Of a stretch of 64,000 nucleotides of DNA, positions 40,300 through 62,001 are shown piece after piece. The stretch is from Pseudoalteromonas ruthenica. GTDB taxonomy: Bacteria > Pseudomonadota > Gammaproteobacteria > Enterobacterales > Alteromonadaceae. A program made the translations under genes and the position numbers. Under the pieces are notes generated by a model. It ran no database searches and was not told where the DNA came from. It saw only the letters and a program-made list of their open reading frames with translations. Within the stretch, counting starts at the first letter, position 1. Every line of letters begins with the position of its first letter. The stretch spans positions 1,612,001-1,676,000 of the forward strand of contig NZ_CP023396.1 in NCBI RefSeq assembly GCF_008808095.1, read 5' to 3'.

Positions 40300-41130
40300 A
40301 TGCGCGCCTTAATCTCCCTCATTATTTTACTTGTTAGTTTTGCTGTCTCTGCGAGTAACCGCTATTACTCAGATAATCGTCTTGAACCACAGCAGGGTTT
40401 TAACTGGGACTGGAGCGTAGGTCTGGGCTACTACGTCGAGGACTCGTACCTTATCGGCTTGGACTCTTATGATGATGGCCTTGAACCCAATATTAACTTA
40501 GTGCTCAGCTACGATAAGTTTTACCTCGACGTCGACAATAGCCAACTCAGTGGTGGCATGGTCATTGGCTATTCACTCATCGATAAATATGACTGGGGCT
40601 TGGATATTCTTGGCACCAATGTGCAATCCGGTTTTGATGAAACAGGCTTAAAGTTATACGACCGAGATGTGATAGATGCCCTCGCGGGTATCGACCGACG
40701 TCACTATGATTTTGATATGGGTATTAGGCTATCGCGGCGCTTTGAGAGCAGCCAATTATCTTTTGAGTTACTTCATGATGTCACTGATACCCACAACGAC
40801 TGGGTATTTACCACGTTTCTATCGAGCATTCAGCAATATCGCAACTGGGAGTTTCGAGGTGGTCTAGGATTTAATGTGTATGGTCGTGAGTTTAGCGATT
40901 ATTACTTTGGTATCGATGAGCATGAAAGCACCGAAACTCGACCGTATTATAAGCCAGATATCGCGTATGCGGTCATGCTAGAGCTCCATGCTGAGCACCC
41001 ACTATCACAGAATTGGGTATTCCTTGCAGGCTGGTTATCAACCTATTTCTCGGGTGAGATCAGTGACAGCCCTATCATTTCTCAATCTTATCAGCATAAA
41101 GCCAAGGTAGGCGTGCGTTATGTGTTTTAG
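40300..41130 (+). CDS. MipA/OmpV-family outer-membrane protein, module 1
   Basis: A 276-residue beta-barrel protein. It has a signal peptide (about 1-18, ending VSA), many aromatic amphipathic strands (WDWSVGLGYYVEDSYL, KFYLDVDNSQLSGGMVIGY), and ends in RYVF with the outer-membrane C-terminal Phe. E. coli MipA binds the lytic transglycosylase MltA and PBP1B; OmpV proteins are outer-membrane antigens or porins. It overlaps the DUF3019 gene by 11 bp. A paralogue in the same gene order is at 61168-62001. Confidence 0.88.
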   Translation: MRALISLIILLVSFAVSASNRYYSDNRLEPQQGFNWDWSVGLGYYVEDSYLIGLDSYDDGLEPNINLVLSYDKFYLDVDNSQLSGGMVIGYSLIDKYDWGLDILGTNVQSGFDETGLKLYDRDVIDALAGIDRRHYDFDMGIRLSRRFESSQLSFELLHDVTDTHNDWVFTTFLSSIQQYRNWEFRGGLGFNVYGREFSDYYFGIDEHESTETRPYYKPDIAYAVMLELHAEHPLSQNWVFLAGWLSTYFSGEISDSPIISQSYQHKAKVGVRYVF

Positions 41131-41515
41131 ATTAGCCCTCGCCCTCTTCGGCACAACCGTGTTCCCGAGTGCGCCCTTAGCACAGCAAACAACGCCGCCA
41201 ACGCACGCTTTATTGGCAACGCCGAATACCTGTGTAGCACTGCGTCAGGGCCGCACCTGTTACTCTGATATCGAGTTGCAATGGCAAGTGGCCAATGACG
41301 CAGCTTACTGCATCCGTGAACAAACTAAGCAGCAACCTCTGCATTGCTGGCAAGGACAACGTCAAGGCTATATGATCGTCGATTTTGCCAGCCCTAAAGC
41401 CGTGCGCTTCGAGCTCTTTCCAAGAGCATCAGGCGAGACCATTGCTGACACCGAAGTGCGAGTGCAGTGGGTTTATACCAATGGACAGAAAAAACGTCGC
41501 TGGAGATTATTTTAG
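41120..41515 (+). CDS. DUF3019-type small exported protein, module 1
   Basis: A 131-residue protein with a signal peptide (about 1-21, LAQ). The mature part has four Cys in the order NTCVALRQGRTC, then YCIREQ, then LHCWQGQRQG, all conserved in the module 2 paralogue and probably two disulfides. The C-terminus is basic and aromatic (KKRRWRLF). Its start lies within the end of the MipA gene and its stop abuts the regulator gene, so it is coupled on both sides. Function is unknown; its position suggests a periplasmic input or accessory of the kinase (inference). Confidence 0.8.
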   Translation: MCFRLALALFGTTVFPSAPLAQQTTPPTHALLATPNTCVALRQGRTCYSDIELQWQVANDAAYCIREQTKQQPLHCWQGQRQGYMIVDFASPKAVRFELFPRASGETIADTEVRVQWVYTNGQKKRRWRLF

Positions 41516-42223
41516 ATGCAGCAATCACCCCATATTCTTGTTGTTGAAGACGACCTTTCTCTGAGCGAGTGGATGCAAGACTTCCTAAGCCAAAATGGCT
41601 ATCAGGTCGGCTGCTGTGGTAACGGCAAGGAAGTAGAAAGCTATGTACAAAGTTATCATCCTGATTTGGTGTTACTCGATGTCATGCTACCAGGAATGGA
41701 TGGCATAAGTGTCTGTACACGCTTACGGCAATTTTATCAGCAGCCGATTATTATGTTGACTGCGCGCGATGATGAATTAGATGAAGTCATCGGCCTTGAA
41801 GTGGGTGCTAGCGACTATATCGCCAAGCCGGTACGCCCTCGAGTTCTACTGGCTCGCATTAAAGCGGCGTTACGCCCAGGCAGCGACGAGCAACCGCCCA
41901 AAAAAGAACGCGAGAGCATTCAAGTGGGCGGTCTCAGTATCGATACTGAAGCGCGACGTGTCAGTTTTAACAATAACGAGGTGGCACTGTCGAATGCCGA
42001 GTTTGCCTTGCTCTGTTACCTTGCCCAGCATGCCGGTGAAGTGGTAGACAGAGATTCCGTGTTTCGTGCCGTTAAGGGACGAGAATACGATGGCCTTGAC
42101 CGCAGTATTGATGTAGTGGTCTCGGCGCTGCGCAAACACTTTAATGACAATGGCAACAAGCCGCAGCGCATTAAAACCATATGGGGCAAAGGGTACTTGT
42201 TAGTGAAGGATGCGTGGAGTTAG
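41516..42223 (+). CDS. OmpR/RstA-like response regulator, module 1
   Basis: A 235-residue regulator. The receiver domain has EDD at about 11-13, phosphoacceptor Asp 55 in LLDVMLPGMDG and Lys in IAKPVRPR. The C-terminal OmpR winged helix contains the recognition region YDGLDRSIDVVVSALRKHF and the WGKGYLL hairpin. The closest well-known relative by appearance is RstA. It begins directly after the DUF3019 stop and is followed by its kinase 19 bp on. Confidence 0.93.
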   Translation: MQQSPHILVVEDDLSLSEWMQDFLSQNGYQVGCCGNGKEVESYVQSYHPDLVLLDVMLPGMDGISVCTRLRQFYQQPIIMLTARDDELDEVIGLEVGASDYIAKPVRPRVLLARIKAALRPGSDEQPPKKERESIQVGGLSIDTEARRVSFNNNEVALSNAEFALLCYLAQHAGEVVDRDSVFRAVKGREYDGLDRSIDVVVSALRKHFNDNGNKPQRIKTIWGKGYLLVKDAWS

Positions 42224-42242
42224 CTCCTAATCGTGCGTTTAT

Positions 42243-43511
42243 ATGAAAAAACTGTACTTATCTTTGTTATGCACAGCGTTAATTTCTGTGGTGTTGCTAA
42301 GCTGGCTTATCGACAGCTTCGCTAGTGGCCCAACGCAACAGGATAACTTCACACAACAACGGCAAGTGCTTGCAGGAATGGTCTCTTACCTGAGTGAGTA
42401 CGAGGCGAAAAATCAGCAACATGGATTGGATGCGCTAAACCAACACTTCAAACTCGATATCGGTCTTGAGAATAACGCTACGTTAGCCCTTCCCCCTTCT
42501 TTAATCACCCAGCTGTATAGTAATTCCGGACTAGTACTTGCCGATAACCAGGGCCTTTATTTAGTGCGCGCTGCCGACAGCTTGCATGGGAAGCACCTCA
42601 CCATGCGCCTACCCAAACCCAAAGCGGCGGATCATGACTTGCTACTCACGGTGTTATTCTACACCGGGGTCAGTTTGTGTATGTGGCTCCCTCTTATCCC
42701 CCTCACCCGTCGTATTAGTGTGCTCTCTAATGTAACTCAACAATTTGCTGACGGTCATTTAGAAAAACGTATTAGCGCCAGCCGCTGGAGCTATACCACA
42801 CAATTAGAGCGACGCTTTAATGCCATGGCGGAGCAAATTAATGCGCTACTCGATGAGAATAAACTGATGGCGTCGAGCCTCTCTCATGACATTCGTACAC
42901 CCATTGCCTGCCTGCGCTTTGGCTTGGATGCGGCAATCGAAAATGACGACCCAGGCGCGCAACAGCGCTACCTCCAGCGTATGGAAAAAGATTTAGACAC
43001 CATGGAGTCGATGCTAAGCAGCTACCTGAGCTACGCGGCTCTGCAACAGCAAACTCAACAATTAACCTATAGTCAAACAAGCGCGTCGCTCTACTTGCAC
43101 GATATTTGCGAGCAATTACAAGCGCAAGCGAAGGCCAATGGGCAACATATTGAGGTAAGCTGCTCAAATGCATTAAAAATAAACGCCGACCTACACTGGC
43201 TGGCGCGAGCATTGATTAATATTTTGGGTAATGCTCTTCGCTATGCACATCAATCAGTAACCGTCTGTGCAGATATTGACGGTCACTTTCTAGCGATTAC
43301 GATTGAAGATGATGGCCCCGGGATCCCTCAGGCAGAACGTGCGGCAATATTAAAACCTTTCTATCAAAGTGCCAAACACCGCTCTGCGCAGGGTTATGGA
43401 TTAGGCTTGGCCATATGTCAAAAAGTCATGGTCTGGCATCACGGCTACTTAGAAGTGAGTGAATCAAACTCTTTAGGTGGGGCAAAATTCACCCTTAAAT
43501 TACCTCTGTAA
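42243..43511 (+). CDS. Sensor histidine kinase, module 1
   Basis: A 422-residue membrane kinase. Helix 1 about 4-26, periplasmic sensor about 27-135, helix 2 about 137-157, HAMP, then the H-box SLSHDIRTPIACLRF, N-box LINILGNALRYA, and ATP-lid motifs EDDGPGI and GYGLGLAI. The His is followed by Asp where Glu is more usual (HDIRTP). RstB-like order and size. The sensor domain shows little similarity to that of the module 2 kinase, so the two systems probably detect different cues. Confidence 0.93.
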   Translation: MKKLYLSLLCTALISVVLLSWLIDSFASGPTQQDNFTQQRQVLAGMVSYLSEYEAKNQQHGLDALNQHFKLDIGLENNATLALPPSLITQLYSNSGLVLADNQGLYLVRAADSLHGKHLTMRLPKPKAADHDLLLTVLFYTGVSLCMWLPLIPLTRRISVLSNVTQQFADGHLEKRISASRWSYTTQLERRFNAMAEQINALLDENKLMASSLSHDIRTPIACLRFGLDAAIENDDPGAQQRYLQRMEKDLDTMESMLSSYLSYAALQQQTQQLTYSQTSASLYLHDICEQLQAQAKANGQHIEVSCSNALKINADLHWLARALINILGNALRYAHQSVTVCADIDGHFLAITIEDDGPGIPQAERAAILKPFYQSAKHRSAQGYGLGLAICQKVMVWHHGYLEVSESNSLGGAKFTLKLPL

Positions 43512-43721
43512 CCTTCAATTTACATTCCCTACACTGAATCACACTTGGTCGCAAATAAGCTCAAACAGCGAGATTACGGCCCTTTATGATAGGCGACCTT
43601 TTTTCTATGTACAGCGCGCTTTACCCTGCTATACGGGCAATTAATGCCCCCGTGAGCTTTTTATTTCATGGAAATTACAGTAGATTGGGAGCGCCGTTCA
43701 CCTACAGAGAAATATAATAAT

Positions 43722-45071: not shown

Positions 45072-45081
45072 CAGCCTAGCT

Positions 45082-45112
45082 AGTCAGCCGCATTGAGTTA
45101 CTGCGGCTGACT
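45082..45112. terminator. Convergent hairpin overlapping the cyclase gene end
   Basis: AGTCAGCCGCA and TGCGGCTGACT form an 11-bp perfect stem with a 9-nt loop between the convergent transporter and cyclase genes. No T-run follows, so it may protect 3' ends rather than terminate by itself. Confidence 0.45.
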
Positions 45113-46084: not shown

Positions 46085-46188
46085 TGAGTCACTGGCGTTG
46101 TAATGCCCAGCCGGTGGCTTGTCATCTACTAGTTACTTTTATTCCCTAAAGGTAGGTGATATGAGCCATTAAGCAACTTTAGCGGGGG

Positions 46189-46638
46189 TTAGCGCTTATG
46201 CAAATACATATCCTGATGCTCAATGCCGTCTTCTAGATAAGGCGACCCACGCGTAACAAACCCCAATTGCTGATAAAAGCCAAGTAAATAGGTCTGCGCA
46301 CTTAACATTACCGGACGTTCACTAAAAAACTGCTCACACACGCCTAGAGCATGCTGCATTAAGCGCTGGGCTACCCCCTGTCCTCGTGCATGGGGCAGCA
46401 CGAGCACGCGTCCGATAGCGACACTTTCTGACTTGTCGATACAACGCGCATAAGCACACAATTGATTGTTCTGATACCCTAAAATATGTTTGCTATTGGC
46501 ATCAATATCGCCATCATCTAGTTCTGGATAGGGGCAGTTCTGCTCGACGACAAAAACATCAACACGAGCACGCATCAAAGTGAATAATTCGGTGGTTGTC
46601 AGCTCATCAAAGCCTTTACATAGCCAGTGTATCGTCAT
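46189..46638 (-). CDS. ElaA-like GNAT acetyltransferase
   Basis: A 149-residue single-domain N-acetyltransferase. It has the ElaA-type start (LMRARVDVFVVEQNCPYPELD) and the acetyl-CoA loop RVLVLPHARGQGVAQRLM (about 79-96), ending in GIEHQDMYLHKR. The substrate of ElaA proteins is not established. It is downstream of the Spo0M-like gene but separated by a terminator. Confidence 0.9.
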   Translation of the reverse strand: MTIHWLCKGFDELTTTELFTLMRARVDVFVVEQNCPYPELDDGDIDANSKHILGYQNNQLCAYARCIDKSESVAIGRVLVLPHARGQGVAQRLMQHALGVCEQFFSERPVMLSAQTYLLGFYQQLGFVTRGSPYLEDGIEHQDMYLHKR

Positions 46639-46652
46639 ACTTATATCCCATT

Positions 46653-47443: not shown

Positions 47444-47638
47444 CACTTCTCCTGTTAATGAATCCTTTATTGCATCTTAACCACAATTGCGCGCCCTTGT
47501 CAGTGAAAACTTATGCAAACCATAAAAAAACTTCAATCACGATTAAAGCGAGAGGAAATGGGCCCTGGCATACATAGTATTTTCAATAACTTCTACAATT
47601 AGTTACACTGATTACACCTGCACTAAGATAACACTTTT

Positions 47639-49811: not shown

Positions 49812-49826
49812 CCTCTACCTTACTTT

Positions 49827-50807
49827 TTATGCCACTGGCTTTTTCAAAGTATCCGCTTTGCGCTTAGGTTTTAGGCTTGCGAAAGAATCGCGCACCGGTT
49901 TAGTGTAAATAGCCCAGATAGAATCATGCCCGGCATCGTATTGACCCACTCCGATACTGATCTTGCCCACTTCATCGGCGCGAATGAGGGTGCCGAATAA
50001 TCGGTCCCATATGGCTAAAGCCGAACCCAGGTTGGTATCAAAGTGCTGCGGGTTGTCACTGTGATGAATTTGGTGTTGCGCGGGACTAATCAACCATTTT
50101 TCAACATGGCGCCCCCAACTCAGCCACACATGAGAATGCCGCAAGTTTGACCCCATGGCATTAAAAGCGAACACAAAAATGTTAGCACCGAGAATGTCCA
50201 CCATGGATAACTTAGTCCCGAATAAGTAGTAGCATACACCGACCACCATCCCTTGTGAGAGCGCCATACGGCAGGCATAAAGGTAACTCTCTAGCGGGTG
50301 AGAGCGATAAATGGTGAAAGGGGTCAGCACTTTAGCAGAATGGTGTACCTTGTGGTAATGCCACAAAAAAGGCACCTTGTGTAGTGCGTAATGCAGTAAA
50401 AACCGTGAAAAGTCATCGGCTAAAAACAGCAATACGGTAAAAATGATGACCACGCTGGTTTCACTCAACGGCATCGGCGCCCGTAAACCAAACGCGCCCT
50501 CTAATAACTCCGTTGTGGCCAGCGCCACTGGCACCATGGTCAAGATAATAGGCGTAAACAACAGTGCCTTAAGCACACGGTTGTAAATCCATAACTGATA
50601 GTCTTGGCGGGCACTGGGTGCCCACCAGATTTTTTTGGCAAACACATAGCGAAAAAAGCCACGTGTTGATTTCTTGCTCTTACGCAAGCCATAAGCAAGC
50701 GCAGCTAAGATAAGGGCCATGATGCTGTAACCAATAAAAATACGCTTATTGGCGTCAAACAGATAATCCGGCGTTTGCGCAATGCTTTGCCAAATAGTCT
50801 CTAGCAT
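49827..50807 (-). CDS. Fatty acid hydroxylase/sterol desaturase family membrane protein
   Basis: A 326-residue integral-membrane di-iron enzyme candidate. It has about five helices and the His clusters HYALH (about 146-150), HYHKVHH (about 155-161) and HQIHH (about 243-247) that bind the two irons in this superfamily. It follows the TonB receptor gene by 12 bp and is the last gene of the iron cluster. Either it modifies a lipid or siderophore-like molecule, or it simply shares the iron-responsive operon. The substrate is unknown. Confidence 0.85.
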   Translation of the reverse strand: MLETIWQSIAQTPDYLFDANKRIFIGYSIMALILAALAYGLRKSKKSTRGFFRYVFAKKIWWAPSARQDYQLWIYNRVLKALLFTPIILTMVPVALATTELLEGAFGLRAPMPLSETSVVIIFTVLLFLADDFSRFLLHYALHKVPFLWHYHKVHHSAKVLTPFTIYRSHPLESYLYACRMALSQGMVVGVCYYLFGTKLSMVDILGANIFVFAFNAMGSNLRHSHVWLSWGRHVEKWLISPAQHQIHHSDNPQHFDTNLGSALAIWDRLFGTLIRADEVGKISIGVGQYDAGHDSIWAIYTKPVRDSFASLKPKRKADTLKKPVA

Positions 50808-50819
50808 GGCCCGACCCTC

Positions 50820-53024
50820 TTAGAACTGGTATTTATAACCAAGCGACAGCGTCCGTGGTTTACCCGGTCGCGCCCCATAAGGGCGACGGCTGACGATGTT
50901 GTCTTGGTCAAACAGGTTATCTACCTTGGCATACACGCGGCCATATTGGCCAAGCTCATAATGAGCCGCGATATCAACCACCGTCGTTGCCGGCACTTCT
51001 TGACCCGCTAAGGCGACATCAAAGCCCTCGTAACCGACGCCCGCCGTTTCTGGCATATCGCTGACATACTTAATGAGCATATCAACCGCCCAATTTTTAT
51101 GTGCCAACCCGATACTGAGCGTCGCTTGGTGCGTTGGCAAATAAGGCAGCCTATCGCCAGGGCGAATGTAACCCCACTGCACAAACTCAGAGAACAACGC
51201 TTGTTTGAACTCGCTTTGCGTATAGGTATAAGTCAAACTCATAGGAATATCGAGTTGCAGATTTAACGGATAGGTTTGAGCTATTTGCGACTCGACTCCC
51301 CACACATCGACCTCGCCACCGCTGAATTCTTGATCAAGCTGACCTTGGCTGCCGCAATTTGACTGTCCACAGCTTTCAATTAGATTAGCGTAATCATTGA
51401 AAAAGCCGACCATTTCAAATTGGGTGATGCCGTCGTTATAACGACCACCAAATTCATAGTTCACGCTTTTTTCAAACTCGTCTTCGCCATCGCGCACTGG
51501 CGCTGACGGGCTAGCAGGAACAAAGCCTTGGTGAACACCAAATAGCAAGCCGCTGTTATCATCTAACTGATAAAAGCCGCTGATCCCTGGCAACCATACA
51601 CGGGTGGTCTTTTGTTGCCAATCATCAGCAAAACCCGACTTATCATTTTGATAGGTCATATCCATCAGCTCACCGCGCACGCCAACACCTAAGGTTAGCT
51701 TATCGATGGTTACCTGATCTTCTATATACACCGACCAGGCATCGGTGCTTTCTGTGTTCTCGGTGGTGAACCGGCGGGTCTCGGCGATGGCAGTATTAAT
51801 GCCGTCAACCATGGCATAGGTGTCTTCATAGTGATTACGCTCAATCTCATCTTGGTGGAAACGAACCCCAAACGAGACTGTGTGCTGCAAGCCAAACAGC
51901 GGTACTTGCCAATCACCATCGAGCTGAATGCCTTGTGAGTAGTACTCACGGTCATTGGTGCCCATATTTAAAAAGTAATTGGTTTCACCGGTGAGCACAG
52001 AATCGCGCTGGCCACTTAACACCTGATATTGACCAGCAAACTGCTCAGGGTTTGCCAAAATATCAGACAAGCTAGCATTGCTGTTAGACAGGCTATTTAG
52101 CTTTAACCAGGCGCGCTCATAATCGTTACGGTAAACCCGCGTTGTTAGGTTTACATCTTCAGCGCTTAGCTGATAGGTAAACATCACTTGCGTATGCTTA
52201 GTATCCATTTGTGCCGGCTGAGATGCGGCATAACGGCGATAAGGGTTAGCCTTGTAATCGGCGTCGGTCAGACCTAAATAGGTCTCATCGGAGAGTTCAT
52301 CGGCGTAAGAAAGCTTGACCTCAAAACGCTGGTCGAAACGCTGGCCATCCAGCTGATAATCCACTTTGACCAGTAAATCGTCTTTATCGAAGCCGGTATC
52401 ACCGCCGCCATCGAGCTCTTTAAAGCCATCACTTTGTAAGTGCACCCCTTCGACTAAAAAGCCAAGGTTGCCTTGGCGGTCGCCATAATAAGCATGGGCT
52501 TTTTTGTAGCCATCTCCACCGGCAGATAAATCGACGCCACCAATACGATAATCTGGCACTTGGCGGCTGACCATATTCAGTGTTCCGGCCACGGTTTGTG
52601 GGCCGTATTTTATCGCCGCAGGCCCTTTAAAGACCTCCACCGCCGTCATTCGCGTGGTTAACGGGAAGTAGTAAGCGGCAGGCGCAGAATAAGGAGCCGG
52701 ACCAATCAACACCCCGTCTTCTAAAATGGTGATCTTCTTACTACGCTCTGGCGTCACTCCACGAAAGCCGATATTCGGGCGCAAGCCGTAGCCGTCTTCT
52801 TCGCGTATGTTGACTCCGGGTACGTGTGATAGCACGCGGTGAATATCGTCAAATTCAAACTCTTCAAGCTGCGCTTCACCTATTAAGGTGGCCGAGCCTG
52901 CTTCGGTGCGCAGTTTGTCGTGGTGGCTAATAATCTGTATATGCTCGAGCTCTTTATCAGCAGCAAAAGCATTCAATCCAAATGCCGCAATACTCACGGC
53001 TAAGGCAAGTTTACTGTGTTTCAT
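50820..53024 (-). CDS. TonB-dependent outer-membrane receptor (FecA-like)
   Basis: A 734-residue receptor. Of two adjacent ATGs, 53024 has the better spacing from AAGGA. Signal peptide to about residue 22 (AFA); a plausible TonB box ELEHIQI follows. The plug domain (about 40-155) includes GVNIREEDGYGLRPNIGFRG and VEVFKGPAAIKYG, then a 22-strand barrel ends in YKYQF. The plug resembles ferric citrate/FecA-type receptors. It is 8 bp after the imelysin gene and belongs to a Fur-box-headed cluster, so an iron chelate is the likely ligand. Confidence 0.93.
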   Translation of the reverse strand: MKHSKLALAVSIAAFGLNAFAADKELEHIQIISHHDKLRTEAGSATLIGEAQLEEFEFDDIHRVLSHVPGVNIREEDGYGLRPNIGFRGVTPERSKKITILEDGVLIGPAPYSAPAAYYFPLTTRMTAVEVFKGPAAIKYGPQTVAGTLNMVSRQVPDYRIGGVDLSAGGDGYKKAHAYYGDRQGNLGFLVEGVHLQSDGFKELDGGGDTGFDKDDLLVKVDYQLDGQRFDQRFEVKLSYADELSDETYLGLTDADYKANPYRRYAASQPAQMDTKHTQVMFTYQLSAEDVNLTTRVYRNDYERAWLKLNSLSNSNASLSDILANPEQFAGQYQVLSGQRDSVLTGETNYFLNMGTNDREYYSQGIQLDGDWQVPLFGLQHTVSFGVRFHQDEIERNHYEDTYAMVDGINTAIAETRRFTTENTESTDAWSVYIEDQVTIDKLTLGVGVRGELMDMTYQNDKSGFADDWQQKTTRVWLPGISGFYQLDDNSGLLFGVHQGFVPASPSAPVRDGEDEFEKSVNYEFGGRYNDGITQFEMVGFFNDYANLIESCGQSNCGSQGQLDQEFSGGEVDVWGVESQIAQTYPLNLQLDIPMSLTYTYTQSEFKQALFSEFVQWGYIRPGDRLPYLPTHQATLSIGLAHKNWAVDMLIKYVSDMPETAGVGYEGFDVALAGQEVPATTVVDIAAHYELGQYGRVYAKVDNLFDQDNIVSRRPYGARPGKPRTLSLGYKYQF

Positions 53025-53032
53025 CATGATCC

Positions 53033-54313
53033 TTAATCGTTATCACCCGCCGAAGTGGTCGGCAACTCAAGTGCCAGCTCATTGATAAAGTCGTTCTTCA
53101 ACTCATCGGTAATGGCTTTAACCTGGGTGTGCACTTCACGTACCTGCTCTTCGTTATCAAGTAATGCAGTGGCTAAGTCACTTTCAATTGCCGCAATCGC
53201 CGCTTTAGTGTCACTGATCCCTTGCAGCATACGCTCCTTAGTGGCGCTTGCTTGCTCATCATCAAGGTAATCGTCGAAACCCACTAACGCGGGCTCGCCC
53301 TGGCGTTGACCCACGACTAGGGCTTCAAAGGCGAGCAAGTTGGCTTTGATATTCGCCAATGAGCTTTTAGCATCGAGGCTCTCTACATCCTGTGGACACG
53401 CAGACGTACCACAGGAGTTAGGTAAAATCCCTATGGGCTCCGCCAACTTTTTATCTTTGACCACTTCGGTTAAATAAAACATTGCATCGGAGATGTGATT
53501 CAGGGCGCTATGGGCAGATTCAAACTGCGACCCGCTTTGCCCCGCTGATTTGAGCTCGGCGGCAAAGCCATTGTCGCCCTGCCATTTTTCCAACAGTTCA
53601 GCACTGGAGTTGTGCACATCCATTGCTGCGGTGACAGCATACTCACAGCGCGCCACTTTACGCGCCAGCACTGTGCGGCTATTCCAATCCGCTAAGGCAT
53701 CATTAGCAACGCTACAATGGTGATCATACTGCTCATTAAAAAGCACATGTTGCAACGCAAAGAGGCCACGCCGTGTGGCGGTACGGGCACTGATATCGTA
53801 TGGTCGCTCAGGGTCGTTATTAATGATGCCGTCTTGGTGGTACACCACATCTTGGTCAATGCCACAGCGGCTAATAGCAGGCCACGAATAAATGCGGTTA
53901 CGCAGCTCGCCGTTGTTGGTCAAAAGCGGCCCCATTTGCATCATTTCCACCTGCTGCCAAGCGCCCATGGCATCTAACCATGCATCTTGGGCTTCAAGCA
54001 TGGCCGTTTGCGCCTGCTCCGAACTACTTTGTACGCTGGCTTTTTCTAATTCACAATAACTGGCAATCGCACTTTGCTGCGCTTGTGCTTGCTGATGAAA
54101 TAAAGTAAACGCCGGGGTGATCACGTTATCAACTAAACTTGCCACCAGCGCCGCTTCATCAAAGCTGGTCGGCTCGGTCGGTGAGGTTGGCTCACCGCTG
54201 CCACTGTCATTAAAACCGGCGCCTTGCGAGCTTGAGGTGCTCTCACCACAGCCGCCCAGAGCGAATGCCACAGCGAGGGCCAGAGCGCCCTGCTTGAGGA
54301 TTGCTTTTTTCAT
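53033..54313 (-). CDS. Imelysin-family (M75-like) lipoprotein
   Basis: A 426-residue lipoprotein. ATG 54313 (MKKAILKQG) has GGAAGG upstream and gives a proper signal with lipobox ALGGC (Cys about 21); a longer frame to 54373 is rejected. The helical imelysin domain follows, with RRGLFALQHVLF near residues 190-200, which corresponds to the GxHxxE-like region of the family (IrpA, EfeO relatives). Such proteins bind iron or assist iron uptake at the envelope and are not proven proteases. It precedes the TonB receptor. Confidence 0.87.
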   Translation of the reverse strand: MKKAILKQGALALAVAFALGGCGESTSSSQGAGFNDSGSGEPTSPTEPTSFDEAALVASLVDNVITPAFTLFHQQAQAQQSAIASYCELEKASVQSSSEQAQTAMLEAQDAWLDAMGAWQQVEMMQMGPLLTNNGELRNRIYSWPAISRCGIDQDVVYHQDGIINNDPERPYDISARTATRRGLFALQHVLFNEQYDHHCSVANDALADWNSRTVLARKVARCEYAVTAAMDVHNSSAELLEKWQGDNGFAAELKSAGQSGSQFESAHSALNHISDAMFYLTEVVKDKKLAEPIGILPNSCGTSACPQDVESLDAKSSLANIKANLLAFEALVVGQRQGEPALVGFDDYLDDEQASATKERMLQGISDTKAAIAAIESDLATALLDNEEQVREVHTQVKAITDELKNDFINELALELPTTSAGDND

Positions 54314-54360
54314 TCTACCTTCCCACTTGCTAGGTATCCCACTAGGGGATTTAAACGACA

Positions 54361-54401
54361 AAAAGGCTAGCATTAAGCCGAGGCCTAAAAGCTAACCTTT
54401 T
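54361..54401 (-). terminator. Intra-operon hairpin between DUF4856 and imelysin genes
   Basis: Minus-strand AAAAGGTTAGC and GCTAGCCTTTT pair over 11 bp with one G-U pair and a 19-nt loop, followed by U residues. It may reduce transcription into the imelysin and receptor genes. Confidence 0.5.
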
Positions 54402-54439
54402 ATGATCTTTATGCTGGCCTTAGGCCATGCAGCTGAGCC

Positions 54440-56197
54440 TTACCAGTTGGCAACATTCTCAGCGTTGAAGCCGTATACTTGTTGCATCAAGTCACGAGCT
54501 GTTTCTAGGTCAGCCTTGTATGCGGCAATGGCATCGGCGTCGCCTGTTACTGGTGCGTCACCAAATAGCGCGTGTAACTCGGCGAACTTACCAGCATTGG
54601 CATCGTCATTAAAAGGAGAGAATGGGCTGAACTGGAAGTTCAACGCAAAGCCTTTCATCTCACCAAAGTGCTTAGCTAAGTCGGCAAAGTTGTCGGCACT
54701 GTAGTCACCATCGCTAATTTCATCTAAATCAGCCATCGTATCGTTGATGTAGTGCACAACCGTAGCGGCAACCGCTTTTTCCCAATTGGCAACAGCGATA
54801 TCACGGTGCGCCAATAACTCATCCATTTGCGCGTCGCTAAGCTCGCTGCCGACATTATCGTTGATGATTTTACGCCCGGCTATAAAGGCGTTCATCGCTG
54901 CTGCGGTGAAATCAGTGGTCACAGTCGCGCCACGGTCACGCTTTGCGGCGTTCGTTGAGTTACCCCAGTTATACTCCGCAGCTAGGTCAATCTGACCATT
55001 GCTGTCGTAATCGTTGTAGCCATTAGCAAAACCATCACGGCCACCCTTACCGGCGATTTCATCGTCGCTGTACTCTAGGTAGTTGCGCGCCGCACCAAAA
55101 TAACCAAAACCTTCATCAAACTGGTGCTCAAGCGTGGTGTATAAAGCACCGTCTTTTTGCGCCACGATGTTATCGGTGGTCAGACCTTCATCAAGGTAGT
55201 CATCGGTGCCTTGAGAGAACATCAATGCGCCTAGGGTGTGCTTTTGAATAAGCTGATTGAGGTCAAGACCAGTTTCAGTAATGTACAACTTCGTGATTTG
55301 ATTGCCCGCTGGGTCAACCAACAGCTCGCCTGCATTGTATTTATCAATGTTTGCCGCTAGCAGGTCGAAATAATGAAACACTAACCCTTCAGGTGTTTCG
55401 GCCTCGGCACCAAATTCGCTCCATCCCACAAAGCTGCCGGCTGCAAGCCAGTCTTTATGCATTTTCGCTGCGTCTGCACCAGCGACTTTGCCGCTAAGCT
55501 CTTTACCTGATGAAGAGATTTGAGCAAAAGAGTTTTGCTCTGTCTCAATGCCATCAGCGAAGTTAAGGCTGCCGTCTTTGATGGCTTCATAGTCACCCCA
55601 CAATGCCATCAACTGCGCTTTTACAGCATCGCCGGTCAAGCTGTTAGTGGTTACAAAGTCACCAGTGAGTTGGCCAATGTAGTTTTTGATTTCTGCGCTT
55701 AGGGCATGGCGAGCGATCTGTCCGGTGTAGCTCACCGAAGAACCGCTTCCTAGTTTAGAATCGAACTCATAAAGGTTAACACCTGCTTCAGGGGCCACAT
55801 CGGCAACCGTTACGGTTAATTCTTTTGCAAAGCTTAAACCACCCGCATCGGTCACTGTGACGCTTACGCTAACCTCAGTTTGCTGCTCGTAGTTCAGAGC
55901 AATACCATCTTTAAGCTTGAGGGTATTACCGTCAACAATTTCAAAACGCGCTTCATCAGCGCTCAGCGTATAGGTAAAACCAGAATCAGCGTCATCAGTG
56001 GCACTCAACGCGCCTACTTCAGCGCCCACCAAATCGTCATTTACCGACGTGCTAGACAAGCTGATGTCGGTAGGAGCTGTATTTGTTGGTTGTTCTGGGG
56101 TGGTGTTATCTGATGAATCTGATGAACCACCGCAGCCAGTTAAACCTAAGGTGGCAGCTAGCACGGCACTAGCAACTAAAGATTTACGCAATGTCAT
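54440..56197 (-). CDS. DUF4856 lipoprotein with N-terminal cadherin-like domain
   Basis: A 585-residue lipoprotein with lipobox LTGC (Cys about 22) and a Ser/Thr/Asn-rich linker. Next is a cadherin-like beta domain (about 40-130, TDISLSSTSVNDDLVGAEVG and VSVTVTDAGG). The large DUF4856 domain (about 140-585), mostly helical, contains acidic calcium-like loops (NDYDSNGQIDLAAEYNWG). DUF4856 proteins commonly neighbour imelysins and TonB receptors. It is the first gene of the cluster, behind a Fur box, and is surface or periplasmic. Its exact job is unknown. Confidence 0.85.
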   Translation of the reverse strand: MTLRKSLVASAVLAATLGLTGCGGSSDSSDNTTPEQPTNTAPTDISLSSTSVNDDLVGAEVGALSATDDADSGFTYTLSADEARFEIVDGNTLKLKDGIALNYEQQTEVSVSVTVTDAGGLSFAKELTVTVADVAPEAGVNLYEFDSKLGSGSSVSYTGQIARHALSAEIKNYIGQLTGDFVTTNSLTGDAVKAQLMALWGDYEAIKDGSLNFADGIETEQNSFAQISSSGKELSGKVAGADAAKMHKDWLAAGSFVGWSEFGAEAETPEGLVFHYFDLLAANIDKYNAGELLVDPAGNQITKLYITETGLDLNQLIQKHTLGALMFSQGTDDYLDEGLTTDNIVAQKDGALYTTLEHQFDEGFGYFGAARNYLEYSDDEIAGKGGRDGFANGYNDYDSNGQIDLAAEYNWGNSTNAAKRDRGATVTTDFTAAAMNAFIAGRKIINDNVGSELSDAQMDELLAHRDIAVANWEKAVAATVVHYINDTMADLDEISDGDYSADNFADLAKHFGEMKGFALNFQFSPFSPFNDDANAGKFAELHALFGDAPVTGDADAIAAYKADLETARDLMQQVYGFNAENVANW

Positions 56198-56217
56198 GTT
56201 GTTATCCCACTAAAGAT

Positions 56218-56237
56218 GTGAATCATTCTCATTTTAA
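56218..56237 (-). promoter_or_regulatory. Fur box of the iron cluster
   Basis: The minus-strand sequence AAAATGAGAATGATTCAC closely follows the Fur pattern (AATGAGAATGATTCTCATT type). It lies 20 bp before the DUF4856 start, where bound Fur would block initiation under iron-replete conditions. Confidence 0.75.
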
Positions 56238-56531
56238 TTGCTGTCATTATAGGGATACTCAAATAACAATCAATGGTATTTATAAGTTTTTTTAAAATCA
56301 CAAATTAAAATAAATTAAACAGGTACGTAAGAAACCCGCTGAGGGCTCACACTGTTCACATCACCGATGTGAGCATACTTAATTAAGACGCGAATAAGCG
56401 CTGCGCGCACGAGCAATCGTATATAAAGGATAACAATCGGACGATAAATTAGGATGGGCTGGCTAAAGACATAAGCCGAAATGCTAGCTCAGCGCCAAAG
56501 GCGCCAAGCCATGTATGTCAGTGATGTGCTG
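56238..56531. other. Intergenic stretch between iron cluster and DUF2975 gene
   Basis: With the Fur box, this forms a 334-bp non-coding interval. It should hold the promoter of the iron cluster on its left. A 7-bp hairpin (TCACATC/GATGTGA at 56356-56372) and a small GCGCC/GGCGC hairpin near 56490 are visible, neither followed by a T-run. I find no convincing ORF. Confidence 0.5.
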
Positions 56532-57146
56532 TTACACCACCTCCAGCGTGTCTGGTTTTTTACTGAAAAATAGCGTTAGCACAATAAGTGCCATTGGGAA
56601 TAGCAGCAAGTTCACGTAGGCAAACACCATCGTCAGCTGTAAAGTAGCAATGATGAGTAGCATGATTGCGAAGACTTTTAGCAACACTTGCTCACGAGCT
56701 GTCTCAACTAACAAGATAAGCGCCAAAGAAATAGCGAAAACGCTGTACAGTAACAAGCAACCACCGGCAATAAATAGGGCAACAACCGCACTATTTGAAA
56801 ACGTATCAGGCTGCATCTCCTGGCCTGTTATCGCAAAGTACAGATCAAAGAGTATGGTGGCGTGAAATATAGCGACAATACACGCTAAGATGATGAGCAT
56901 TGTCCGCGCCAAGCGCAAACTCAAATGATTTTTTAATACTCTCGCCAGGGTCCAATAAATATAGATCTCAAGAGCACCAATCACCATAAACAAGGCATCG
57001 GACCAAGACAGGCTATAAAGGTCTTGTTGAAATGCGGTGTCAAAGCCATCAAACGCGTGGCCATATAGGTTGCTCCAATATAGTGGAAATAGAATCGCTA
57101 GCAATACCGTAGCGATAGCCGGGATAACGAGATCACGGTTTAACAT
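56532..57146 (-). CDS. DUF2975-type membrane protein
   Basis: A 204-residue protein with four predicted helices (about 8-27, 48-68, 85-110 and 128-200 as two). ATG 57146 (MLNRDLVIPA) has GGAG 6 nt upstream; the alternative in-frame upstream start overlaps the regulator gene. DUF2975 proteins are typically paired with a small XRE regulator, exactly as here, and may form a membrane-controlled regulatory pair. Function unknown. Confidence 0.8.
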   Translation of the reverse strand: MLNRDLVIPAIATVLLAILFPLYWSNLYGHAFDGFDTAFQQDLYSLSWSDALFMVIGALEIYIYWTLARVLKNHLSLRLARTMLIILACIVAIFHATILFDLYFAITGQEMQPDTFSNSAVVALFIAGGCLLLYSVFAISLALILLVETAREQVLLKVFAIMLLIIATLQLTMVFAYVNLLLFPMALIVLTLFFSKKPDTLEVV

Positions 57147-57162
57147 ATCTGCTCCTGAGATT

Positions 57163-57393
57163 TTATTTATCATTATCTAAGTAATCAGCATCACGCTCGT
57201 AGACCAAAATATCACCGGGCTGACAGTGCAATACATCACAGATCGCAGCCAAGGTGCTAAAGCGAATCGCCTTTACTTTGCCATTTTTGAGTAAAGATAA
57301 GTTGGTCATCGAAATGCCTATTCTTTGCGACAATTCCGTGAGTGACATCTTTTTCTTTGCTAACTCTACATCAAGGTTTATGCGTATTTTCAT
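57163..57393 (-). CDS. Small XRE-family HTH regulator (YozG-like)
   Basis: A 76-residue Cro/C1-type DNA-binding protein. I place the start at ATG 57393 (MKIRINLDVEL), the usual family start; an upstream extension rich in hydrophobics is unlikely. HTH region SLTELSQRIGISMTNLSLLK (about 17-36), and the ending HCQPGDILVY is diagnostic for the YozG/DUF2975-partner group. It lies 16 bp before the DUF2975 gene. Confidence 0.88.
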   Translation of the reverse strand: MKIRINLDVELAKKKMSLTELSQRIGISMTNLSLLKNGKVKAIRFSTLAAICDVLHCQPGDILVYERDADYLDNDK

Positions 57394-57576
57394 GCTGACT
57401 AAATTACGACCAAAAACAATGTTTGTCAAAATATATTTTATGATAAACATAAAACATTTTGGGTTAGGCTGATCGAGGGAGGTTCATTTTCAATGGCATA
57501 AGCGTGGTTCAGCAGTGGTCATACACGCCCACTCAGTGTTAGCATTAAAGGAACAGGGAAGTGTTAGGAATGTCGA

Positions 57577-58749
57577 ATGCAGCAGCGTTTTCATTATATT
57601 GATAATTTACGGGGCTTAGCGTTATTACTTGGCGTCGTGTTCCACGCCGCCTTGGCCTATGGCCCTTATTTTCACAATATGTGGCTGAGTGTCGATACCA
57701 ACAAACATGTGCTGTTTGACTATCTCGCCATGTGGACACACCTATTTCGCATGCCACTGTTTTTTGTTATCGCTGGGTTCTGTGCCGCTATTTTAGTGAC
57801 TAAACGCGGCAATGGTCATTTTATTCGCAACCGCTCCAAGCGCGTGCTGCTACCCTTTGTTATTTTTTTGCCACTGACGCTGCTGGTGCTATTTCAATTA
57901 ATGGTATGGGGAGTAGAGTTCAGTGACCATCCCCCGCCGTTAGTAAATCTGCTGATGGCCGAGAAAGAGCCGCAGATCAACACTATGCATCTATGGTTTT
58001 TATGGTACTTGATGCAATTCTGTGCACTGTTTTGGTTGCTGAATAAAAGTCAGCGGTTAATAAGCAAGTTGCTTGAGGTGGTTGTTAATACGGTATTTAT
58101 AGTGGTTGCGTTACCCGTTGTAATAAGTGCTGGGATGGCTCACTTAGTCGTGCCCTTCCCTGCACCCCACACCTTACAGCCGCAACTTTGGGCTTATTGC
58201 ACCTATGGGCTTTTGTTTATGCTAGGTGCAAGTTTATACCATCACCACAATACCGTATTAGCTGCGCTGCGTTATTTTAAGCCGCTCGTGCTCGTTGCCT
58301 GTTTAACCGTGGGCGCGTATTTTTACCTATTACCTGAAGCACCGAGCCTTGAGCAAGTAAGGATTGCCGTAAATACCGGTGAAACTCGCGTAGCGCATAT
58401 CAACCTGTTGTTAGTTGTAGTACAAACCCTCGCCATATTAAGCTGCACCGCTTTGGTATATTTAGCGGGCTATCGCTGGCTGAACCAATACAATGAGTAT
58501 AGCCGCTACATCTCCGACGCTTCCTATTGGATTTACCTTATGCACATTCCAGTATTAATGTGCGTGCAAATACCAATCAGCAATACCCTACTTCCAACCT
58601 TCGCCAAGTTTACTATTTCACTTAGTACCACGTTGTTGATAGGTTTTATCAGCTACCATTTCGGCGTGAGATATACCGTGCTGGGGATGTTGTTAAATGG
58701 CGCCAAGGCAACGCCTATGCAAAGCAAGGCGATGGATTCACTGCGCTAG
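57577..58749 (+). CDS. Acyltransferase family 3 membrane protein (OpgC-like)
   Basis: A 390-residue, roughly ten-helix protein. It opens with RFHYIDNLRGLALLLGVVFHA, the Acyl_transf_3 signature with the catalytic-type His (about 23), and has RMPLFFVIAGFCA and RSKRVLLPF typical of the OpgC/MdoC branch. Such enzymes transfer acyl groups, for example succinyl, from the cytoplasm to envelope glucans or polysaccharides. Acceptor unknown. AGGA lies just upstream of the ATG. It is convergent with the module 2 kinase gene. Confidence 0.85.
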   Translation: MQQRFHYIDNLRGLALLLGVVFHAALAYGPYFHNMWLSVDTNKHVLFDYLAMWTHLFRMPLFFVIAGFCAAILVTKRGNGHFIRNRSKRVLLPFVIFLPLTLLVLFQLMVWGVEFSDHPPPLVNLLMAEKEPQINTMHLWFLWYLMQFCALFWLLNKSQRLISKLLEVVVNTVFIVVALPVVISAGMAHLVVPFPAPHTLQPQLWAYCTYGLLFMLGASLYHHHNTVLAALRYFKPLVLVACLTVGAYFYLLPEAPSLEQVRIAVNTGETRVAHINLLLVVVQTLAILSCTALVYLAGYRWLNQYNEYSRYISDASYWIYLMHIPVLMCVQIPISNTLLPTFAKFTISLSTTLLIGFISYHFGVRYTVLGMLLNGAKATPMQSKAMDSLR

Positions 58750-58815
58750 GAGGTATCTGCCGTCGCTCTTGTTGTGCTAATACCGCAAGGCGAGTAAGGC
58801 AAGGTCTGTATTTGG

Positions 58816-60072
58816 CTAGTCTAAGCCAAGGGTTTTGCCTTTGATGAACGGTAATGTGATGGTAAAGCGTGCACCGCCGAGTGGACTGTCGTCGACACTG
58901 ATCTCTCCTTGGTGCCAGTGAACAATTTTGCCACATATAGCCAAACCAAGGCCGTAGCCCCCAGTGCGTTTATCACGGCTTTTATCCAAGCGAATGAATG
59001 GTTTAAAGATATCTGCTCGTTTACTATCAGGGATCCCCTCGCCATCATCTTCGACACTGATGATACATTGCTCCTTGCTGGCTTGGAGGCGCACTTCTAT
59101 ACGACTGTGGGCATGTTTAATGGCGTTGCCTAAAATATTTTGAAATGCACGGCTGATAAAGTGTGGATCGCAACGATACAAATTAGGCTGCTCATAAATT
59201 ACTGAGATTGCAATTGCGCTGTCAAAATTGAGCTTGTCTACCAGTGATTCCATCAGCTCATTCAAATCCACTAGATGAGATTCTAAACTCGGACTTTGCG
59301 CGTCCAAGCGCGCATAATGCAGCATTTCACTGACTAAATTTTCCAGCTCGGTAACATCACCGGTCATCGACTGCACGTACTTGCGCTGTTTTTCATCGGC
59401 GCCCTGCTCAACCATTGCCAAAGCAAACTTAAGGCGCGCTAGAGGGGTGCGAAACTCATGGGATACGGAGGATGTCAGTTCACGTTGTGCGTCTAGCAAG
59501 CTGTGAATACGTCGCTGCATCACTTGCAGCGCATCGGTAATGGGCAATAAAAACGAGCGGCCAATGTCACTGACCTGAAACTCGCGGCGGCCATCCACTT
59601 CGGCACAGGCTTCGCTGAGCTTATTAAAATCCCGCCACAACATGAAGCTCCACAGCCCCACCGGCGCACCAACAACCAAGAGCACTAACAGATACGGCCA
59701 AAAGAAGCCTTCTTTTTCAGGCTTTTCCAAGCGTACGGGGCCCACTTGTAAAAGCTGTAAATCGCCTACAGGGACATACCAAATAAGATGCTCATTGGCG
59801 TCATACACATGCACAGCTTCTTTATTATCGATCCGTGTTTGTAGCTCAACAGGCAAGGCAATGGCACCACTGTCGATGGTGCGCATAGGATAGTGACTTT
59901 GGATATATTGACGCCCTAATGGGCTTTGTGCCAGCGCTTTGAAGTTATGGCCTAACTCCAACGCTAACGGAGTCGATTGTTCATCAACGGGCCACAGGCG
60001 CTCGATTACGCCGGTCACCAACACTAAGGATACAATGATATATAGATAAAGGCTGACGAACAGTTTGCCCAA
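58816..60072 (-). CDS. Sensor histidine kinase, module 2
   Basis: A 418-residue membrane kinase. Helix 1 about 5-23, periplasmic sensor about 24-122, helix 2 about 124-145, HAMP-like linker, then H-box SVSHEFRTPLARLKF, N-box FQNILGNAIKHA, EDDGEGIP and GYGLGLAI. The sensor contains YDANEHLIWYVPVGDLQ, a PAS-like strand pattern that differs from the module 1 kinase. It starts 5 bp after its regulator. Confidence 0.93.
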   Translation of the reverse strand: MGKLFVSLYLYIIVSLVLVTGVIERLWPVDEQSTPLALELGHNFKALAQSPLGRQYIQSHYPMRTIDSGAIALPVELQTRIDNKEAVHVYDANEHLIWYVPVGDLQLLQVGPVRLEKPEKEGFFWPYLLVLLVVGAPVGLWSFMLWRDFNKLSEACAEVDGRREFQVSDIGRSFLLPITDALQVMQRRIHSLLDAQRELTSSVSHEFRTPLARLKFALAMVEQGADEKQRKYVQSMTGDVTELENLVSEMLHYARLDAQSPSLESHLVDLNELMESLVDKLNFDSAIAISVIYEQPNLYRCDPHFISRAFQNILGNAIKHAHSRIEVRLQASKEQCIISVEDDGEGIPDSKRADIFKPFIRLDKSRDKRTGGYGLGLAICGKIVHWHQGEISVDDSPLGGARFTITLPFIKGKTLGLD

Positions 60073-60077
60073 ATTAG

Positions 60078-60770
60078 TTATTCACTCCACGCATCGCTTA
60101 CAAACAGGTAACCCTGACCCCATACCGTTTTTATTCTATAGGGTTTATCACTATTATCACCTAGTTTTTTGCGTAATCGTGAAATTCGTACATCAACAGT
60201 TCTATCTAAACCATCGTACTGTCGGCCAATCATTTGTTCGTGTACATATTCGCGGCTCAGTACATCACCAGCATTGCTTGCCAGTAACCATAATAGCTCG
60301 AACTCATGAGAGGTCAGCGATACTTCCTGCCCTTTCAACGTCACAATACGGCTATTTTTATCAATTTTCAGCTCGCCAAAGGTGACACTTTGCACGCTTT
60401 TGTCTTGCTCTTGGGTGCGTCTTAACAGTGCGGTAATACGCGCCAGCAACACCCGAGGCTCAGCAGGTTTTATCACATAGTCATCTGCACCTAGCTCAAG
60501 ACCGATAACTTGGTCAAAATCTTCGCCTTTGGCGGTCAACATTAAAATGGGTAGCGCGTACTTATCACGTACTTCGCGGCACACAGTGAAGCCATCCTTG
60601 CCTGGCAGCATGACATCTAAAATCATTAAATCCACTTTGTGTTTACTAAGGTAGTCCATCACCTCGTCACCGCGAGACAGCACTGCGACATGTAAATTAT
60701 TCTGTTGCAGATAGTCTCGGGTTAGCTCTTGTAGAGCCAAATCGTCCTCAACTAAGAGTATGTTCGCCAT
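60078..60770 (-). CDS. OmpR/RstA-like response regulator, module 2
   Basis: A 230-residue regulator. Receiver Asp is about 52 in ILDVMLPGKDG, and the output winged helix has YDGLDRTVDVRISRLRKKLG and VWGQGYLFVSDAW. It keeps the same recognition-helix frame as the module 1 regulator (YDGLDRS/TVDV), so the operators may be related. It lies 15 bp after the DUF3019 gene. Confidence 0.94.
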   Translation of the reverse strand: MANILLVEDDLALQELTRDYLQQNNLHVAVLSRGDEVMDYLSKHKVDLMILDVMLPGKDGFTVCREVRDKYALPILMLTAKGEDFDQVIGLELGADDYVIKPAEPRVLLARITALLRRTQEQDKSVQSVTFGELKIDKNSRIVTLKGQEVSLTSHEFELLWLLASNAGDVLSREYVHEQMIGRQYDGLDRTVDVRISRLRKKLGDNSDKPYRIKTVWGQGYLFVSDAWSE

Positions 60771-60785
60771 GTGCCAACTCCTGAA

Positions 60786-61166
60786 TTAAAAAAAACTCCA
60801 CACCGAACGTAAGCGCCGACGCGAGCTTTGCATCGTTTGCAGTTCCAGTTGGGTATCTACGACTAATTCGCCGGTTTGTGCATGGGTAAGGGAGTATATG
60901 GCCGGTAACTGAACCTTGGCTTTATACTGCCACTGCCCTTGCCGTTGGTCTTGCCAGCATTGCAAGGTTCGCTCGTTCTCGCGCAAGCACACCGGCATCG
61001 CTTGCGGTAGTTGCCAACGGATATGCATGGCCGTTTCGCACGCCTGTCCCTTTTCGGCAACCACACAATATTGCGGAGCAATCACCAATGCCGTATCACT
61101 TAGCGTAAGCGTACTACTAAGTTGCATGGCATTAACTAAGGTCGCTGCAAAAACGGCGCTGATCAT
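60786..61166 (-). CDS. DUF3019-type small exported protein, module 2
   Basis: A 126-residue protein. ATG 61166 lies one base after the MipA stop and gives a signal peptide starting MISAVFAATL; an upstream TTG (61190) is the alternative. The four conserved Cys recur (PQYCVVAEKGQAC, VCLRE, LQCWQDQRQG), and the basic aromatic C-terminus is RRRLRSVWSFF. Outside these points the two copies are quite divergent, showing an old duplication or separate acquisition. Confidence 0.78.
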   Translation of the reverse strand: MISAVFAATLVNAMQLSSTLTLSDTALVIAPQYCVVAEKGQACETAMHIRWQLPQAMPVCLRENERTLQCWQDQRQGQWQYKAKVQLPAIYSLTHAQTGELVVDTQLELQTMQSSRRRLRSVWSFF

Positions 61167-61167
61167 A

Positions 61168-62001
61168 TTAAAACACGTGCTTGAGGCCAATAAAGGCCGT
61201 TACTGCGCTCGACTCCTCAAACAAGGGACTATCGCTGGCTAGGCTATGGTAGTCAATATAACCCACATGAAAGCGTAGCGCATTGCGCTTATTCAATATA
61301 AAGCTGACATCAATGTTGGCATAGGGCTGTAAAGTGCTGCCTAGGCTCAACGCATCTAGCCCGGTCACCTCTTGCTGTTGTAGGCCATAAAAGTAGGTAT
61401 TCATTTCTGCATTAGCGTACTTGATACCCACCGTCGGTTCGACGATCCACCGCTGCATACGATAACTGTTACGCCAACTAATATCCGCGCGCCAACCATT
61501 ATAGACACTGGTGGTATCCGCCAGCGCATTAACGGTGACTTGCCCGGCGCTGGAAAAGTAATGGTACTCCAAGCCTACATCTAATGCCCACTGACGCTTT
61601 CGTACATCGTGAATATCAACGACCCGTGGGCCATCCATCTCCATACTAGCGAAAGAATTCCCTTGTAAAGCGAAGACGCGGCTCGGGTGCCAATCAACAA
61701 AAAAACGGGTTTCAGGGTTAAATTCAGTGACGACACTAAGCACATGTTCGGAGTGTTCAACAAAGGTGTAGCCTAGTTGCGCATTGTCAAAATACCAAGA
61801 CTCGCCATAGTATGCGATATCGGGGATAAGTATTAATGGCAGATTATCACCACCATGAAGTGGATTGGTCATGCTGCCGTAGCCGAGGTTAGCGCCTACA
61901 TGCCACTGATTTAGCGCGACTTCCTCACCTCGTGCCGACGGCGCGCTAAACACCGCAGCGATCAGAAACATAGCCAATAGTCGACTGTGCGTGCCAAGCA
62001 T
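61168..62001 (-). CDS. MipA/OmpV-family outer-membrane protein, module 2
   Basis: A 277-residue barrel protein with a signal peptide ending in ARG or SARG (about 24) and strands such as WHVGANLGYGSMTNPL and LRFHVGYIDYHSL. It ends KHVF, again with C-terminal Phe. It is the first gene of the module 2 operon, on the minus strand, with GGGGTG before the ATG. Confidence 0.87.
   Translation of the reverse strand: MLGTHSRLLAMFLIAAVFSAPSARGEEVALNQWHVGANLGYGSMTNPLHGGDNLPLILIPDIAYYGESWYFDNAQLGYTFVEHSEHVLSVVTEFNPETRFFVDWHPSRVFALQGNSFASMEMDGPRVVDIHDVRKRQWALDVGLEYHYFSSAGQVTVNALADTTSVYNGWRADISWRNSYRMQRWIVEPTVGIKYANAEMNTYFYGLQQQEVTGLDALSLGSTLQPYANIDVSFILNKRNALRFHVGYIDYHSLASDSPLFEESSAVTAFIGLKHVF

Follow-up and report, generated by a model that had tools for sequence, protein, structure and literature searches.

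Why would a marine bacterium keep the same four genes twice, in mirror orientation, and what might a small protein of the DUF3019 family be doing between an outer-membrane barrel and a two-component system? The question is raised by a stretch of 64,000 nucleotides of the Pseudoalteromonas ruthenica genome (4.1 Mb in two contigs; positions 1,612,001 to 1,676,000 of NZ_CP023396.1), the whole of which we refer to as the window. Here the genes follow one another in the order MipA/OmpV barrel (MipA below), DUF3019 protein, response regulator and sensor histidine kinase, once at 40300-43511 on the forward strand (module A) and once at 58816-62001 on the reverse strand (module B), the two copies converging across about 15.3 kb. 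A first-pass annotation of this DNA had proposed the arrangement, and Pfam confirms all eight genes at the positions it gave. Arguing by analogy with published systems, we hypothesize, with a probability of about 0.5, that the cassette is an autoregulated envelope sensor related to mipBA-parRS of Pseudomonas aeruginosa and carRS-ompV-virK of Vibrio cholerae, in which DUF3019 would be a new partner in the periplasm.

DUF3019 is found in 87 of 394 genomes and 30 of 114 genera sampled from the host's order and in none of 14 control genomes; across the class it is rare (9/369 genomes, this one and another of its family included). We examined all 135 matches from outside Pseudoalteromonas with flanks of up to 5 kb and recognised the DUF3019 gene in 133, the other two being a locus in which DUF3019 and the regulator share one frame (L130) and a truncated copy (L234); two matches (L215 and L220) belong to one locus, and another (L149) lies close to a contig end. 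MipA, regulator and kinase were all near DUF3019 in 126 of the 133, in strict consecutive same-strand order in 125 of these 126, and in one further unit MipA and kinase are present but the regulator frame was not recognised. Within Pseudoalteromonas (71 matches in 28 genomes, the window included) MipA adjoins DUF3019 in every case (71/71); 58 copies form complete modules of that order, and four have MipA inverted behind the kinase, on the opposite strand and tail to tail (L271, L273, L274, L275). Beyond the host's order, six of seven copies read MipA, DUF3019, regulator, a kinase also being present in four within the 1.5-kb flanks, and in the seventh, which reads kinase, MipA, DUF3019, no regulator was seen. 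The recurrence of one gene order across the host's order, and of the A/B pair across the genus, is not due to chance. The first-pass annotation had asked whether DUF3019 and MipA might be placed independently: DUF3019 is not, and MipA in general is, 27 of 30 class-wide MipA loci having neither DUF3019 nor OmpR-type two-component genes within 1.5 kb (a regulator or kinase in 3/30, DUF3019 in 2/30). Likewise, both DUF3019 genes of the host genome lie inside the window, and two of its four MipA genes lie outside the modules, with no DUF3019 or OmpR-type two-component genes adjacent. Since DUF3019 is tied to MipA while MipA is mostly free of DUF3019, the linkage is one-way.

Some loci depart from the plain four-gene plan. 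At L130 (4761-6038) DUF3019 and the regulator lie in a single 426-residue open frame of a fragmented assembly, an internal start being likely, and MipA, this frame and the kinase are all present. The L215/L220 locus reads MipA-DUF3019-MipA-DUF3019-regulator-kinase in tandem, with barrel and DUF3019 doubled as a pair. An extra gene stands between DUF3019 and the regulator at L213:4087-4818, L217:4150-4839 and L218:3998-4702; its product resembles an additional small outer-membrane barrel, Pfam matches being weak at L218 and lacking at L213. A further MipA gene of the host genome (L246, G000:C2:709125-722838) comes right after short-chain-dehydrogenase and ketoacyl-synthase genes, as though it belonged to a fatty-acid or polyene cluster.

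Related bacteria share operon order by descent, and the four genes might thus stay together by operon inertia, with no joint function. We regard this as highly improbable. The order is kept between highly diverged copies, in a family present in 30 of the 114 sampled genera and also beyond the order; only 10 of the 135 non-genus loci match any other window gene between 30 and 64 kb; and, save for the one truncated copy, DUF3019 with neither MipA nor a kinase was not seen among the loci examined. With duplicate sequences merged, as for the promoter, tree and charge counts that follow, the protein distances of the module parts correlate at r 0.72-0.84 (183 full modules from 108 genomes). When partners are permuted within the 56 genomes that have at least two modules, r drops from 0.74-0.86 to means of 0.21-0.32, and in none of 200 permutations per pair does it exceed 0.48. 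As judged from these sequence distances, the parts are inherited together as a cassette; physical contact is not thereby demonstrated.

The 19 A copies and 18 B copies of the genus form separate clades in all four single-gene trees as well as in the concatenated one, a comparison that the first-pass annotation had called for. Each clade is joined by other genera before the two meet, the first joins being weak in places, and on these trees the two modules represent separate old lineages; 21 of the 58 full modules of the genus are of other types again. The convergent A/B pair recurs within 20 kb in 15 of the 28 genus genomes (the window and L248-L261), with two more at about 17 kb, so the arrangement is also old. 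Between A and B the regulators are alike (51% identity) and the kinases (30%) and DUF3019 proteins (27%) have diverged, as the first-pass annotation had said; the barrels have diverged most (21%, 155 columns).

The sequence upstream of MipA-A, CTACATTTTCTTACAG, contains a TACA-N6-TACA repeat, which by its sequence is of the RstA-box type and a candidate operator (Table 1). Escherichia coli RstA binds TACATNTNGTTACA, with tandem TACA (PMC4117788), and Vibrio vulnificus CarR, which is required for polymyxin resistance, binds GACA-N6-TACA (PMC10433830). In a set of 239 distinct upstream regions, those under 150 bases having been dropped, the repeat stands before MipA in 109 of 214 regulator-linked units, as against a mean of 3.2 and a maximum of 7 in 20 shuffles; weighted by 60% MipA clusters, the count is 42.9 of 111 versus 1.1 in the shuffles, and no other gap between 0 and 15 gives more than 16. 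It is absent from all 25 units in which no regulator lies within 1.5 kb, a weak contrast because these (23 Pseudoalteromonas pairs and two mis-sorted non-genus units, in 4 clusters) are nearly all of one clade. At 14 genus loci a perfect site precedes MipA-A in 13 and an imperfect, inverted site precedes MipA-B in eight; upstream of seven genes that flank the modules or lie between them the site was found at 0/14 each, and upstream of another neighbour at 2/7. The module regulator would presumably bind this site. Elsewhere in the window a perfect TACA-N6-TACA (47594-47607) lies just before a Na/H-exchanger-family gene at 47639; it is not conserved in the 14 relatives.

Both modules match the same Pfam families, MipA (PF06629), DUF3019 (PF11456), Response_reg with Trans_reg_C, and HisKA with HATPase_c. 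The barrels score 118.1 (A) and 110.9 (B) bits against a PF06629 cut-off of 24.2 bits, and the DUF3019 proteins 87.3 and 76.3 bits against a PF11456 cut-off of 25 bits. Neither barrel reaches the score of more than 400 bits that the Vibrio OmpV equivalog NF045789 requires (67.9 and 28.9 bits). For the regulators the best NCBIfam model is RstA (232.8 and 253.3 bits, cut-off 330) and for the kinases RstB (207.4 and 231 bits, cut-off 478); all four proteins fall below the curated cut-offs, and we therefore call the regulators RstA-like rather than RstA. The abutting or overlapping starts of the first-pass annotation hold for module A, where the DUF3019 start at 41120 overlaps the end of MipA (stop 41128-41130), and were amended for module B, where the ATG at 61166, one base past the MipA-B stop, is a more likely start than the TTG at 61190. 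By our own frame calls, the commonest MipA-DUF3019 junction is an 8-base overlap before the MipA stop (64 of 216 distinct full modules).

Table 1. Genes and candidate operators of modules A and B, in window coordinates.
Feature	Positions	Strand	Basis or remark
Candidate operator A: CTACA-N5-TTACAG (TACA-N6-TACA at 40235-40248)	40234..40249	+	51-66 bases before MipA-A start
MipA/OmpV outer-membrane barrel, module A	40300..41130	+	Pfam PF06629, E 8.2e-34
DUF3019 predicted secreted protein, module A; tail KKRRWRLF	41120..41515	+	Pfam PF11456, E 1.2e-24; AlphaFold model
OmpR-family regulator, RstA-like, module A	41516..42223	+	Response_reg + Trans_reg_C; NCBIfam RstA best model
Sensor histidine kinase, module A; predicted ParS-like periplasmic sensor, residues ~28-127	42243..43511	+	Pfam; sensor model versus PDB
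Sensor histidine kinase, module B	58816..60072	-	Pfam
OmpR-family regulator, RstA-like, module B	60078..60770	-	Pfam; NCBIfam RstA model
DUF3019 predicted secreted protein, module B	60786..61166	-	Pfam PF11456, E 2.8e-21
MipA/OmpV outer-membrane barrel, module B	61168..62001	-	Pfam PF06629, E 1.3e-31
Candidate operator B: TTACA-N5-TCACA, imperfect, inverted relative to operon	62065..62079	+	one half-site CACA

The DUF3019 protein had been called Cys-rich; cysteines are present, and more precisely 179 of 183 modules have exactly four within the final 105 residues. Its AlphaFold model is a beta sandwich of the immunoglobulin (Ig)-like kind, in which the four cysteines are invariant and the C-terminus is cationic-aromatic. 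The protein is presumably periplasmic, its Ig-like domain held by two predicted disulfides. By a simple pattern, a lipobox is absent in 180/183. The last 16 residues carry a net charge of at least +3 in 177/183, and the chain ends in W-x-x-F, with W at position -4 in 172/183 and F last in 152/183, a tail that resembles a tryptophan/arginine-rich antimicrobial peptide. MipA is acidic (net negative in 173/183). With Pfam taken up to E 10, the sole other match for the two DUF3019 proteins is T2SSN (E 0.05, B only). Neither DUF3019 nor PF11456 is named in any paper of the literature searched, most subscription journals lying outside it.

The first-pass annotation had held that, to its knowledge, no such system is established, which the literature does not support: barrel-plus-kinase sensing is already published. 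According to PMC10936184, polymyxin induces P. aeruginosa mipBA via ParRS, the regulator activating mipBA directly; MipA binds polymyxins and co-purifies with MipB; deletion of mipBA abolished polymyxin induction of mexXY-oprA; two-component genes lie beside mipA in most of the loci screened; and the authors propose that MipA and MipB (co)sense polymyxin for ParS. They model MipA with a negatively charged channel that docks MipB at its open periplasmic side via charged residues. In both systems the MipA gene adjoins an OmpR-family kinase-regulator pair. The modelled sensor of the module kinase has its best match in that of ParS. The partner differs: MipB is described there as a beta-lactamase-fold lipoprotein with two additional beta-barrel domains, whereas DUF3019 has about 100 residues and is Ig-like in its model; the gene order differs too, and no MipB-like beta-lactamase-fold gene is among the four genes of either window operon.

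The carRS-ompV-virK operon of V. cholerae, described as sensing antimicrobial peptides (cited in PMC13413815), likewise couples two-component genes with an OmpV/MipA barrel and one further small gene, virK, but there the kinase genes precede the barrel. The CarR site of V. vulnificus given above resembles our candidate operator. In Vibrio mimicus polymyxin induces ompV, yet the authors conclude that there is no tie to CarRS (PMC13413815). RstA and RstB give the best models for the regulators and kinases, and the upstream box is of the RstA type, but all four module proteins stay below the model cut-offs. BesRS of Burkholderia thailandensis (PMC9426598) is RstAB/ParR-like, responds to polymyxin B and ampicillin and has a MipA/OmpV gene in its regulon, but that gene is one member among many, and the term DUF is absent from the main text. 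The element without precedent here is DUF3019.

Because the cassette has the same kind of barrel, its kinase sensor is ParS-like, its candidate operator is of the RstA/CarR kind and DUF3019 stands where the published systems have MipB or VirK, we read it as an autoregulated envelope sensor of that kind. MipA would sit in the outer membrane and DUF3019 would be secreted to the periplasm, its cationic-aromatic C-terminus free; the kinase would carry a ParS-type periplasmic sensor, and the RstA-like regulator would bind TACA-N6-TACA upstream of the operon. Outer-membrane damage, most likely by cationic antimicrobial peptides, would be registered at MipA and relayed by DUF3019 to the kinase. The regulator would then raise expression of the whole operon in a positive feedback, so that MipA and DUF3019 would be both the front end and the main output. 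The genes with their order, linkage and co-inheritance, the conserved promoter repeat and the fold match of the sensor come from the computations; cellular location, disulfides, regulator binding at the operator, the inducer, any contact among MipA, DUF3019 and kinase, and the direction of signal flow are inferred. The first-pass annotation had left open whether barrel and DUF3019 are input or output; the module is real and co-inherited, its barrel and DUF3019 genes are, on the strength of the candidate operator, probably regulated by the circuit, and they are possibly its signal input. Since operators A and B differ in strand and in one half-site, the two modules may be two sensing channels insulated from each other.

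A more specific version, which we consider rather doubtful, is a competition sensor: the cationic tail of DUF3019 would mimic the signal and sit in the periplasmic mouth of MipA, peptides would displace it, and the freed DUF3019 would activate the ParS-like kinase. The sensor would then span both membranes, with DUF3019 as messenger. This idea draws on the cationic W-x-x-F tail, the acidic MipA and the polymyxin-binding MipA of P. aeruginosa with its modelled docking of MipB (PMC10936184).

Several observations weigh against the sensor hypothesis. Outside the genus, 6 of the 133 DUF3019 units have regulator and kinase with no MipA, and within it 9 of the 71 copies are MipA-DUF3019 pairs without kinase and regulator, one of them carrying the sole DUF3019 of its genome; the pair can thus work without the circuit. 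With regulator and kinase core removed, the partial distance correlation between MipA and DUF3019 is 0.10, no clear signal of direct contact, and that of MipA or DUF3019 with the sensor is 0.20-0.21; nor do the charges of MipA and DUF3019 covary (rho -0.12, p 0.10). The kinase sensor model matches the ParS sensor best (Foldseek E 3.6e-3) at medium confidence (predicted local distance difference test score 77.5), and a sequence profile of the sensor gave no significant ParS match (E 1.1). A perfect box is missing from 105 of the 214 regulator-linked units, and 82 lack even the variant with a single C in a half-site, so a general rule would require further site variants. Genome-wide, the site shows no enrichment (3 in the genome versus 6 for the reversed control), nor does the CTACA form in 40 genus genomes (about 94 versus 91); the sites being no commoner than controls, the operon itself is the one visible target.

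The kinase-less pairs and the confinement of the genus box to the MipA promoters, with the operon as main visible target, also agree with a simpler circuit, in which the kinase senses envelope damage alone and MipA and DUF3019 are effectors, for instance a barrel that binds up cationic peptides or keeps them out, stabilised by a small helper protein in the periplasm. The absence of a perfect box from the 25 units without a nearby regulator points the same way, subject to their near-single clade, as does the proposal that V. mimicus OmpV sequesters polymyxin B in a negatively charged cavity (PMC13413815). Such an output-only role is a possibility to be taken seriously, if held tentatively: the near-invariable linkage and co-inheritance of the four parts, also among paralogues, exceed what would be expected of an effector gene, and in P. 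aeruginosa, the closest system studied, the effect of the mipBA deletion on mexXY-oprA argues for a part in signalling.

Interactions of E. coli MipA with MltA and PBP1B have been described (work cited in PMC10936184). Genes of the PF00144 family are neighbours of module A in the genus, and a few distant modules have one within or next to them. The cassette might accordingly monitor peptidoglycan damage, with MipA as a scaffold for murein enzymes and DUF3019 as their partner. We think this unlikely, as DUF3019 resembles no murein enzyme among the fold matches listed; the neighbourhoods were not searched for murein enzymes. The PF00144 gene of the window, for a class C beta-lactamase-family serine hydrolase (38078-39238, reverse strand), lies two genes from module A on the opposite strand and has orthologues at 14/14 genus pair loci. 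PF00144-like proteins of distant modules, between DUF3019 and the regulator at L159 and beside the kinase at L130 and L166, recall P. aeruginosa MipB.

Directly before MipA-A, a gene for a predicted exported protein or lipoprotein (39344-40198, forward strand) has no Pfam match and has orthologues at 14/14 genus pair loci. The block at 49827-58749 between the modules holds fatty-acid hydroxylase, TonB-receptor, imelysin (PF09375) and DUF4856 genes. These fill the larger A-B gap of the window and have no counterpart between the modules of pair loci L248, L252 and L261; at L262, relatives of the imelysin and DUF4856 genes come directly after kinase B.

The envelope-sensor hypothesis would give a first concrete role to DUF3019, a Pfam family of unknown function present in 30 of the 114 genera sampled from the order. 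Natural variants without the kinase exist, and the promoter site is directly usable as a reporter. In DUF3019, one marine bacterium would hold, in two old copies, a candidate messenger that is small, predicted to be soluble and always linked.

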